In this document: positions 30,258 through 56,181 of the stretch, piece by piece
How positions within the stretch are numbered: the first letter of the stretch is position 1
How the letters are laid out: the number at the start of each line of letters is the position of its first letter
Source of the DNA: Acidobacteriota bacterium
Lineage (GTDB): Bacteria > Acidobacteriota > Terriglobia > Terriglobales > Acidobacteriaceae
DNA length: 64,000 nucleotides
Assembly (NCBI GenBank): GCA_021846275.1
Contig: JAJZBZ010000007.1
Span: 62,001-126,000, forward strand
Direction: 5' to 3'
Program-made: the position numbers and the translations under genes
Notes under the pieces: generated by a model
What the model was told of the DNA's origin: nothing
What the model saw: the letters and a program-made list of their open reading frames with translations, nothing else
Databases searched by the model: none

Positions 30258-30652
30258 CGCTGCATGGTGTATGTGCGGATGTTCGTGAGTGCAACGTTCG
30301 GTCGGGATGAGCCATTGAGGCTGTCGTCCGGGTTGTTGGAGCAGGCGAGGACGACTGAGGATGGTGGAATCGGCCGACTGCATGGGGGAATGACAACGAG
30401 AAAAGCAAAGGCTGGGACAAGGGCAACGGCAAAAGCAGATTCCCTTCGGGAATGACAACCAAAAGGCGAAGGCAAGAGCAACGGCAACGGCAGAAGCAGA
30501 TTCCCTTTGGGAATGACAACCAAAAAGCGAAGGCAAGGGCAACGGCAACGGCGGCGGTGGATTTTCTGTGGGGGTGGGTGGGGAGTGGGGTCGTGCGAGA
30601 ATGAAAGTGGGTGATTCATGGAAAATTCACGCGGGAAATGGGGCTGGGAGCG
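30258..30652. other. intergenic region with tandem palindromic repeats before purL
   Basis: About 395 bases. The centre is occupied by the repeats listed separately (30434-30557), with a degenerate part-copy GGGGGAATGACAACGAG at about 30386-30402. The rest carries no gene. The purL ribosome binding site GGGAG lies at about 30646-30650. Confidence 0.6.
30434..30557 (+). repeat. two tandem 61-bp units with the ATTCCC-TTC-GGGAAT palindrome
   Basis: Each unit begins AGCAGATTCCCTTCGGGAAT (second copy with TTT in the loop) and continues GACAACCAAAAGGCGAAGGC, then a GCAACGGC-rich run. Starts are at 30434 and 30495. The core forms a 6-bp hairpin with a 3-nt loop. The same core occurs twice inside the FAD oxidoreductase gene at 36711 and 36756. 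Confidence 0.85.
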
Positions 30653-36364: not shown

Positions 36365-38077
36365 ATGCTGGATGAGACGAAGCAGGCTGCGCGGAGCGGC
36401 GTGGCGGTGATTATTGGCGCGGGACCGGCGGGGTTGACGGCGGCGCTGGAACTGCTGCGGCAGACGGGCGTGAAGCCGATTGTGATCGAAGCGGGCGAGG
36501 CGATGGGTGGATTGTCACGGACGGTTCGCTACAAGGGGAACCGCCTGGATATTGGCGGGCATCGGTTTTTTTCGAAGTCCGACCGGGTGATGGACTGGTG
36601 GCTGGAGATGCTGCCGCTGGAGCGCGGCGCGGACTCTGGCGCGGGCGAGATGCGGTATCAGAATCGGAGCCGGGCGATGCCGGTTGCGGTTCCGCGCGAG
36701 GAAGAACAAAAGCAGATTCCCTTCGGGAATGACAACAAGAAAAACCAAGAACAAAAGCAGATTCCCTTCGGGAATGACAGCCAAAAAGTTAAGAGCAGTG
36801 ACGATGAGTCGAATGGTCCTGGTACGGATGCGGATCGCGTGATGTTGGTGAGGGAGCGCAAGAGCCGAATTTATTTTTTGCGGCAGTTGTTTGCGTATCC
36901 GATTCGCATGAGCGGGGACACGATGCGGAAGCTGGGAGTGGGGCGCGTTTTGCGCTACGGGGCGAGCTATCTGCGGGCGGCAATGTTTCGGCGCGGGGAG
37001 GAACGGACGCTGGAGGATTTTCTGATTCGGCGGTTTGGGCGCGCGCTGTATGCGGCGTTTTTTCAGTCGTACACGGAGAAGGTGTGGGGAGTGCCGTGCA
37101 GCGAAATCAGCGCGGAGTGGGGCGCGCAGCGGATCAAGGGATTGTCGCTGCGGGCGGTGGCGCGGGATTTGCTGCGCAGGCGATTCGGGCGTGTGCGGAC
37201 GGGGATTGCGCAGAAGGAGACGGAGACTTCGCTGATTGAGCGGTTTTTGTATCCGAAGTTTGGGCCGGGGCAACTGTGGGAGCTGGTGGCGGAGCGGGTG
37301 TGCGGGATGGGCGGCGCGATCGAGACGGGGCTGACGGTGGATCGCGTGGAGACGCGGGGCGGGCGCGTGGTGGCGGTGGAGGCGCGGAATGCGACAGGCG
37401 GGCGGCGGCGGTTTGAGGGCGAGTATTTCTTCTCGACGATGCCGGTGAAGGAGTTGGTGCGGGCGCTGGAGCCGACTGCTCCGGCAGCCGTGCGCGAGGT
37501 GAGCGAAGGGCTGGTGTACAGGGATTTCATCACGGTGGGGCTGCTGGTGTCACGGCTGAAGGTGAAGGAAGCGGATGGGAGCAGGCTGAAGGACAACTGG
37601 ATTTATATTCAGGAGCCGGATGTGCGCGTGGGTCGGGTGCAGATTTTCAACAACTGGAGTCCGTGGATGGTGAGCGATGCGGAGAAGGTCTGGATGGGAC
37701 TGGAGTATTTCTGCAACGAGACGGACGAGATATGGAAGCTGAGCGATGAGGCGATGGCGCGGCTGGCTGTGGACGAAATGGCGCGGATCGGAATGTTGGA
37801 GACGGCAGATGCCGAGGACTGGCATGTGGTGCGCGTGCCGAAGACGTATCCGGCGTACTTTGGGACGTATGAGCGGTTTGGAGTGGTGCGGGAGTTTCTG
37901 GACGGGATGGAGAATCTGTTTCTGATTGGGCGGAACGGGATGCACAAGTACAACAATCAGGACCACTCCATGCTGACGGCGATGGCGGCGGTCGAAAATA
38001 TCGTGCGCGGGGTGACGACGAAGGAAAATCTATGGGCGATCAATACGGAGATGGAGTATCACGAGGAGAAAGCGTGA
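36365..38077 (+). CDS. FAD-dependent oxidoreductase (amine oxidase/PPOX-like) with an in-frame repeat insertion
   Basis: 570 residues. The N-terminal Rossmann motif [17 protein letters not shown] and [20 protein letters not shown] identify the protoporphyrinogen-oxidase/amine-oxidase-like FAD family; the C-terminal FAD contact is [19 protein letters not shown]. Members desaturate or oxidise lipid-like substrates or act with glycosyltransferases; the substrate here is unknown. Residues about 105-160 form an insertion not expected from the family. It contains two 15-residue units, [15 protein letters not shown] and [15 protein letters not shown], followed by a Ser/Asp-rich linker before the conserved [11 protein letters not shown]. 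The reading frame is preserved through the insertion, so the enzyme may be functional. Confidence 0.85.
36711..36800 (+). repeat. two in-frame copies of the ATTCCC-TTC-GGGAAT repeat inside a coding region
   Basis: Copies begin AGCAGATTCCCTTCGGGAAT at 36711 and 36756, 45 bases apart, so each adds exactly 15 codons. The core is identical to the intergenic copies at 30434 and 30495. Both translate as KQIPFGND. Confidence 0.9.
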
Positions 38078-54787: not shown

Positions 54788-56181
54788 CGCCGGAGTGGGA
54801 TGCAGCGGCGATTGCGCTGGCGGTGATTCTGTGCGTGATGCGCTATCTGGTGCGCGTGGAGGATGCGGCTGGACGAATTCTGGCGCGGGATGTGCAGGAG
54901 CATCTGGAGGCGTGGGAGCGCGCGGTGGTGCCGCGGCTGGGGATGAGTCGCGAGCGCGCGGCGCAGGCGGCAGAGACGTGGGCGATGGTGGCTGTGGCGC
55001 TGGAGGCGCTGGTGCTGGCGCGGCTGGTGCTGACGCGTGTGGGCGCGTGGAGCGGAGCGGGGAGCGGATGGTGGCGCGTGGATGCGGCTGGCGAGTGGCT
55101 GGTAGGGCTGCTGCTGACGGTGGTGATCTGCGGCGAGGTGATTCCGTTTCTGATGATGCAGCGGCTGCGCGGGGACTGGCTGGCTCCGGTGGCGTGGCTG
55201 GTGCGCGGGATGCTGGTGGTGATGGCGCCGGTGACGGTGGTGATTCAATTTCTGCTTTCGATTGCGAGCCTGACGGAACCGGAGAGCGCGAGCGAGGATG
55301 AGTCGGGCGATGTGGAAGCGCTGCTGGAAGCGGGTGAGGAAGAGGGAATTCTGGAGGAGCAGGACAGGCAACTGGTGCGGTCGGCGCTGGAGTTTGGCGA
55401 CAAGCTGGTGAAGGAGGTGATGACGCCGCGGTCGGCGGTTTTTGCGGTGCCGGAGGATATGCTGCTGCGGGATTTTGTGGCGGCGCTGGCAAGGCAGAAT
55501 TATTCGCGCGTGCCGGTCTATCGCGGCACGCTGGACGAGGTGACGGGGATTGCGTTTGCGCGCGACCTGCTGCATGTGTCGGATGAGGAAAAGGCGGTGC
55601 GCACGGTGGGCAGCATGGCGCGGCTGGCGGCGCTGGTGCCGGAGACCAAGCGCGGGTATGATCTGCTGCGGGAGATGCAGCGCGAGAAGCAGCACATGCG
55701 CGTGGTGATTGATGAGTACGGCGACGTGGCGGGCGTGGTGACGATTGAAGACCTGCTGGAAGAGATTGTGGGCGCGATTCGCGATGAGCATGAGGATGAT
55801 GCCGAGGCGGCGAGTGAGGAAGCTGCGAGTGAGGAAGATGGGGCATGGCGCGTGCCGGGAGGTTTTCCTGCGGATCGGCTGGTGGAGTTGGTGGGCGGGG
55901 AGTGGGTGCCGGATGGCGAGAGTTACGAGTCACAGACGGTGGGCGGGCTGGTGACGGAGATTGCGGACAGGATTCCGCTGGCCGGAGAAGTGGTGGAGGC
56001 GGGAGGGTTGCGGATGGAGATTGTGAAGGCGAGCGAGCGGCGCGTGGAGGTGGTGCGCGTGCGGCGGGTGGAGCATGCCGTGGAGCGGATGAGCGCGGCA
56101 GCCGAGAGCGCGGATGCAGATGCGGAACCGCACACCGAAGCGGATGCGATTCCGGACGGGAATGAGAGCGAGGCGAGATGA
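54784..56181 (+). CDS. CNNM/CorC-HlyC family membrane protein with CBS pair
   Basis: 465 residues. Membrane segments lie near 7-24, 62-85, 104-127 and 136-160. A CBS pair covers about 205-325 (VKEVMTPRSAVFAV ... NYSRVPVYRGTLDEVTGI, then HMRVVIDEYGDVAGVVTIED). The CorC-HlyC domain occupies about 350-425 (GGFPADRLVELVGG, TVGGLVTEIADRIPLAGE). Members are linked to magnesium or cobalt efflux and were once called haemolysins. It has an acidic Glu/Ala/Ser insertion near 335-350 and an acidic tail. It sits between ybeY and era, a classic position, with ATGA overlaps on both sides. Confidence 0.93.
   Translation: MTPEWDAAAIALAVILCVMRYLVRVEDAAGRILARDVQEHLEAWERAVVPRLGMSRERAAQAAETWAMVAVALEALVLARLVLTRVGAWSGAGSGWWRVDAAGEWLVGLLLTVVICGEVIPFLMMQRLRGDWLAPVAWLVRGMLVVMAPVTVVIQFLLSIASLTEPESASEDESGDVEALLEAGEEEGILEEQDRQLVRSALEFGDKLVKEVMTPRSAVFAVPEDMLLRDFVAALARQNYSRVPVYRGTLDEVTGIAFARDLLHVSDEEKAVRTVGSMARLAALVPETKRGYDLLREMQREKQHMRVVIDEYGDVAGVVTIEDLLEEIVGAIRDEHEDDAEAASEEAASEEDGAWRVPGGFPADRLVELVGGEWVPDGESYESQTVGGLVTEIADRIPLAGEVVEAGGLRMEIVKASERRVEVVRVRRVEHAVERMSAAAESADADAEPHTEADAIPDGNESEAR

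Follow-up and report, generated by a model that had tools for sequence, protein, structure and literature searches.

REPs that carry a CGTC tag include dRS3 of Neisseria and RPE-6 and RPE-4 of Rickettsia conorii, and the sections of the account used here report that the tag is altered to TGTC in many repeats and that intragenic copies occur in several species (Di Nocera et al., 2013, PMC3733652). REPs are also described in frame inside tnpAREP genes of subclass 2.4, in the relevant part of a second paper (PMC6006769), and a generic survey of REPs, with Granulicella aggregans among those covered, gives, in the part drawn on, palindrome counts only (PMC12306157). The kind of event considered below, a REP-like repeat read inside a protein, is already in print; for the repeat family itself we found no description in the open-licence literature, and the sequence-only reading of this DNA had likewise known of none.

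The window (the whole stretch of DNA that was analysed, 64,000 nucleotides) holds two pairs of such palindromes, one upstream of purL and the other inside the gene for an FAD-dependent oxidoreductase. We propose that a REP-like mosaic repeat was very probably copied into a length-tolerant loop of the FAD gene, was doubled, and is read through in frame. The features concerned are as follows.

30386..30552, plus strand: intergenic tandem array of the same family, upstream of purL (TRF; cores at 30439, exact, and 30500, one mismatch)
36365..38077, plus strand: host gene, encoding a 570-aa FAD-dependent oxidoreductase of the PRK07208 type with a fold like that of UDP-galactopyranose mutases (NF005546; Pfam; fold matches)
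36699..36798, plus strand: repeat-derived block of roughly 33 codons with approximate limits, made up of A/G-rich linker plus two palindromic cores (similar by blastn to repeat stretches at other places in the genome; low-confidence segment 111-151)
36716..36730, plus strand: palindromic core copy 1, 6-bp stem and 3-nt loop, read I-P-F-G-N (exact match; DNA fold)
36761..36775, plus strand: palindromic core copy 2, 45 bp past copy 1 (exact match; DNA fold)

When folded as DNA, the core ATTCCCTTCGGGAAT forms a hairpin with the 6-bp stem ATTCCC/GGGAAT and a 3-nt loop. A search of the window places it exactly at 30439, 36716 and 36761, while the core at 30500 has one mismatch, its loop being TTT instead of TTC; the sequence-only reading had counted four occurrences of a 20-mer, of which three are exact and the fourth is not. 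Its two periods are both correct, the cores being 45 bp apart in the FAD gene and 61 bp apart in the intergenic array, where TRF finds a 61-bp unit in 2.7 copies between a histidine-kinase-like frame (end 30257; named by eye) and purL. With up to two mismatches allowed, five matches occur in the window, whereas 100 shuffled versions average 0.03 and never exceed 1; the fifth match, at 56149 on the minus strand with two mismatches, appears unrelated.

The genome (G000), of an Acidobacteriaceae soil bacterium, is a draft of 3,336,519 bases in 13 contigs, 98.64% complete. It contains 147 copies of GATTCCCTTCGGGAATGAC at up to three mismatches, against 0 in the reversed control, so the family that had been supposed from two pairs of copies is real. 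A chance origin of the repeat is ruled out by the window shuffles and the reversed-genome control taken together. The context of 136 of the 147 copies was examined, in 47 stretches that total 278,820 bases. Among these the loop of the exact core is TTC in 62 and TGC in 56, the reverse strand beside the stem reads TGTC in 117, CGTC in 4 and something else in 15, the tail CTGC is present in 124, and many copies have A/G-rich linkers on their flanks, built of aagcaa-like steps. Spacings in the arrays, which are mosaic, start at 33 bp. Tandem spacings below 200 bp are multiples of three in 30 of 70 instances, and none of the 38 multi-copy clusters is of mixed orientation, both counts being made with clusters split by a gene model of one codon class, which affected the splitting only. 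As a short palindrome in many copies that are mostly extragenic, the repeat has the general properties of a REP.

Two of the mosaic arrays are long (C8:111115-111781 and C5:174915-175640; L167, L012, L018), and in them the palindrome is mixed with other repeats. A CTGACGR repeat occurs in both, with one 18-mer at 72 exact places in the genome, overlapping in tandem, and the C5 array also holds a GCATTGCATGCAG module that has 78 exact places. Neisserial intergenic mosaic elements likewise combine palindromes with other repeat modules in intergenic arrays, a likeness that we draw from general knowledge of those elements and that depends on the two further modules near the palindrome.

Exact ATTCCCTKCGGGAAT was found in 14 of 150 genomes sampled from the same bacterial family, and across the phylum the exact 19-mer was found in 7 of 199 genomes, all of them among the 20 from the same family and none among the 179 others. 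The repeat family has so far been seen in this bacterial family only. In G127, from another genus (L224-L241), the core is mostly single-copy with a shared 5' flank, which is gattcgagcaaaacgca in many instances; because the core stands in a different context there, the linker seems to vary by genus.

In behaviour the repeat resembles CGTC REPs. Its reverse strand reads TGTC-ATTCCC-GAA-GGGAAT, with a stem that opens with A-T pairs, and its copies are numerous, mainly intergenic with some in genes, and come without a dedicated transposase, as in the sections of the account used (PMC3733652). However, in families 1-4 of that account, as those sections give them, the stem is 8-9 bp rather than 6 bp, the loop 4-5 nt rather than 3 nt, the unpaired tail mostly CCA rather than CTGC, and the copies form mostly head-to-head dimers rather than head-to-tail arrays, and because of these features we place the repeat outside families 1-4. 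The sequence-only reading had been reminded of the Rickettsia palindromic elements, an apt analogy since RPE-4 and RPE-6 are themselves among the CGTC-tagged REPs (PMC3733652, sections used). As in Rickettsia, a palindromic repeat lies in frame in a conserved enzyme whose orthologues are without it, but in the same sections many genes are hit in R. conorii, compared with one of 60 loci here, and the RPE-1 elements are longer than this repeat (PMC3733652). In tnpAREP subclass 2.4 the REP insertion also leaves the reading frame unbroken, although there, in the part of the paper used, the host is the REP transposase itself and the REPs are of the GT[AG]G type (PMC6006769), whereas here the host is an FAD enzyme. 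The Acidobacteriota would thereby join the bacteria in which an enzyme that looks functional includes a translated palindromic repeat, and repeat-free orthologues are at hand for comparison.

The host gene runs from an ATG at 36365 to a stop at 38077 as a single open frame of 570 codons' worth of protein (570 aa), which scores 778.9 bits against NCBIfam NF005546 (cut-off 418) and contains the Pfam domains NAD_binding_8 and Amino_oxidase; fold comparison of its model gives UDP-galactopyranose mutases as the best matches. Repeat-like DNA extends over approximately 36699-36798, with a few weaker matches reaching 36672 and 36819, and when the block is compared by blastn with the repeat stretches of the genome the best 25 of 179 matches have 75-94% identity over 45-122 columns. 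The frame is open throughout, with coding scores of 46 before the block and 191 after it. Each 45-bp unit adds 15 residues, as had been read, namely a ten-residue stretch followed by NKKNQ. Of the three sense frames through the 45-bp unit, one is open in 131 of the 136 copies, another in 129 and the last in 1; with two of them free of stops, the unit could be read through. These results support the earlier claim that a genome-wide palindromic family has in-frame copies in an FAD enzyme that otherwise looks intact.

An AlphaFold2 model built with 43 sequences has a mean pLDDT of 79.8 and a pTM of 0.82. Strands 101-104 and 160-164 enclose residues 111-151, whose pLDDT is below 50, and further low stretches are found at 258-262, at 275-288 and at both ends. 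The block, for which a surface loop had been named as something to check, thus lies where model confidence is very low and predicted strands stand on either side, and it is probably translated as a floppy, disordered loop of the enzyme, with the proviso that low pLDDT may partly reflect the absence of aligned sequence there.

We compared the segment from GGHRFF to MLxRxRxSRI across orthologues. It has 89 residues here against 45-63 in 14 of 15 relatives at genus, family and class level (L115 was not measurable), an excess of 26-44 residues over the measured relatives, of which about 33 are repeat-derived. In the 80 public orthologues the segment is 42-68 residues long in 56 and 75-103 in 21, with 3 unmeasured. 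The loop is thus not always short, as the earlier statement had it for the family: in these 21 of the 77 measured the enlarged segments are of other sequence and, by eye, rich in acidic residues. Since 21 of 77 carry 75-103 unrelated residues at this place, the loop appears to tolerate growth; and because other genera have long loops, length by itself proves nothing and it is the sequence match that carries the case. By title, 14 of the 21 long-segment orthologues are from Edaphobacter or Granulicella (examples are L043, L045, L051 and L057).

The alignment with orthologues that the sequence-only reading had proposed finds the repeat block in the loop segment of none of the 95, among them those of the repeat-bearing genomes G011 and G013 of the same genus (L118, L122). 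A pattern scan picks up PEGN in L035 and L094, in both outside the loop segment. With the block missing in 95 of 95 orthologues, a conserved or ancestral origin is ruled out. The sequences compared point to the repeat as one of at least two independent enlargements of the loop. The closest orthologue found is 72% identical and no empty site from a close strain was found, and because the best orthologue is only that similar we infer the insertion across a variable loop with uncertain borders.

One possibility is that the repeat peptide is a selected and useful addition to the enzyme, for example a new binding or regulatory loop, rather than a tolerated accident. This may be consistent with both units keeping the frame, and with the length of the segment in 21 of 77 public orthologues, so that length may be useful. 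However, its residues derive from a repeat whose other examined loci are intergenic, model confidence is very low at the block, a multiple of three is in any case seen in 30 of the 70 tandem spacings below 200 bp, and the long loops elsewhere are, by eye, unrelated in sequence; we consider selection for such a loop improbable. Under the explanation that we prefer, in which a copied repeat is tolerated, the peptide most likely serves no purpose of its own and has stayed because it is nearly harmless. The source would be a TGTC-tagged hairpin core with its A/G-rich linker, from the REP-like mosaic family, a copy of which entered the FAD gene at a length-tolerant loop. Doubling at the 45-bp spacing may have taken place before or after arrival in the FAD gene, and the gene would have retained its frame, with the repeat translated within the lengthened segment. 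Membership of the family, the open frame, the absence from orthologues, the loop position and the rarity in genes are observations, whereas the copying, the time at which it happened and a functional protein product are what we infer.

How often the repeat lies in genes was assessed with our own gene caller, which assigns locus classes from a two-class codon model. The 136 copies form 60 loci, of which 27 are intergenic between genes of the same direction, 19 convergent, 7 divergent, 6 undecided and 1 intragenic, this sole intragenic locus in the genome being the FAD gene. In five relatives, 109 copies yield one marginal in-gene case only, the C-terminal 17 codons of a 147-aa frame with a low score (L210); the stretches analysed cover 21 of 21 exact-core places in G013, 20 of 20 in G127, 26 of 28 in G011, 26 of 44 in G006 and 7 of 8 in G093. 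Core matches also occur in G017, G020, G046, G081, G087, G094, G111 and G116, which lie outside the context analysis. The repeat is extragenic by habit and the FAD gene is a rare exception, so the suggestion that it resembles an element invading proteins generally is not supported.

It could be argued that the repeat is in fact frequent in this lineage's proteins, like the RPEs in those of Rickettsia, and that our caller misses most such cases. The caller marks just 57-77% of the stretches as coding, depending on the genome, 6 of 60 loci have no called gene on one side, and the 17 C-terminal codons in L210 are a marginal case, but the FAD case is readily detected and at 53 of 60 loci the repeat is outside any gene and flanked on either side by a called one, although some of those calls are low-scoring; this account appears less probable still than a selected loop. 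Least probable of all is an artefact, either mis-assembly at the repeat or a dead gene, which a draft of 13 contigs and the proneness of repeats to assembly errors might suggest, but against which stand the single open frame with its coding scores on either side, a protein far above the NF005546 cut-off, and a block of merely about 100 bp.

No PF01797 protein was detected in G000, which excludes a RAYT or an IS200/IS605-type element with its own transposase, as recognised by that domain, in this genome. Y1 matches are present in 5 of 9 repeat-bearing genomes, with 16 matches in the relatives, and no repeat copy at up to four mismatches was found at 8 of 8 loci inspected out of these 16; G013, G046 (81% complete) and G116 (73% complete) gave no Y1 match. 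The Y1 gene flanked by the repeat that marks a RAYT-associated REP (REPtron) was not seen in G000 or at these 8 loci.

The orientation of the repeat is nearly fixed. In six genomes of three genera, 243 of 245 copies read on the locally G-rich strand, independently of gene direction. The account of CGTC REPs, in the sections used, does not mention orientation relative to the G-rich strand (PMC3733652), and our literature search on REP orientation with GC skew, as far as its sources were seen, gave nothing useful. Y1 enzymes require single-stranded DNA, and IS200/IS605 transposases insert into the lagging-strand template, according to the part of the paper used (PMC6006769). Copies confined to one strand would be the trace left by a mechanism of that sort. 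Because the family keeps almost one orientation relative to the G-rich strand, a single-stranded-DNA route at replication forks is suggested, by which the family may spread or survive nearly one-way; strand-specific loss is an equal alternative to a strand-specific route. We offer, tentatively, a wider picture in which Acidobacteriaceae carry a REP-like mosaic element that has no recognised transposase and is strand-locked with respect to replication in its copying or its survival; its T-poor reading on the G-rich strand, open in two of three frames, would be translatable in genes there, and the FAD enzyme would be caught in the act of gaining a loop. The orientation rule makes the spread of transposase-less CGTC-like REPs testable, as strand-specific insertion against strand-specific loss.

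The GC skew of the window, in 4-kb steps, is 0.18-0.34, where a typical value is about 2.5% in the part of SkewDB used (PMC8941118). On contig C5 the sign of the skew alternates in blocks. Genes run on both strands and fall into two codon classes, G-ending on the G-rich strand and C-ending on the other, the main classes having 98 and 117 genes. In G000 the genes beside the repeat have the codon class that matches in 113 of 114 counts, flanking genes being counted per locus so that a gene between two loci gives two counts. The G-rich strand is generally the leading strand; if it is so here, such frequent sign changes would need inversions or assembly joins. None of the 47 repeat stretches of G000 has an absolute skew below 0.1 (minimum 0.139), compared with 7 of 20 samples from C5 (Fisher p 9e-5), a comparison that is only indicative, since the stretches are of unequal length and all the samples were drawn from a single contig.

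One-strandedness is also shown by many G-rich coding k-mers of this genome. As a control we took coding k-mers, 7-10 bases long and present 20 or more times, and asked which reach 98% strand bias: 0-3.8% do so where G minus C is 0 or 1, 4-11% where it is 2 and 12-42% where it is 3. In the 19-base repeat this difference is 0, and for that reason the balanced k-mers (0 or 1) are a fair, if inexact, control. The two exceptions to the orientation are one copy in G011 and one in G127. The first lies at L222 2066-2622, where both orientations occur at one locus, the only mixed locus among the relatives.
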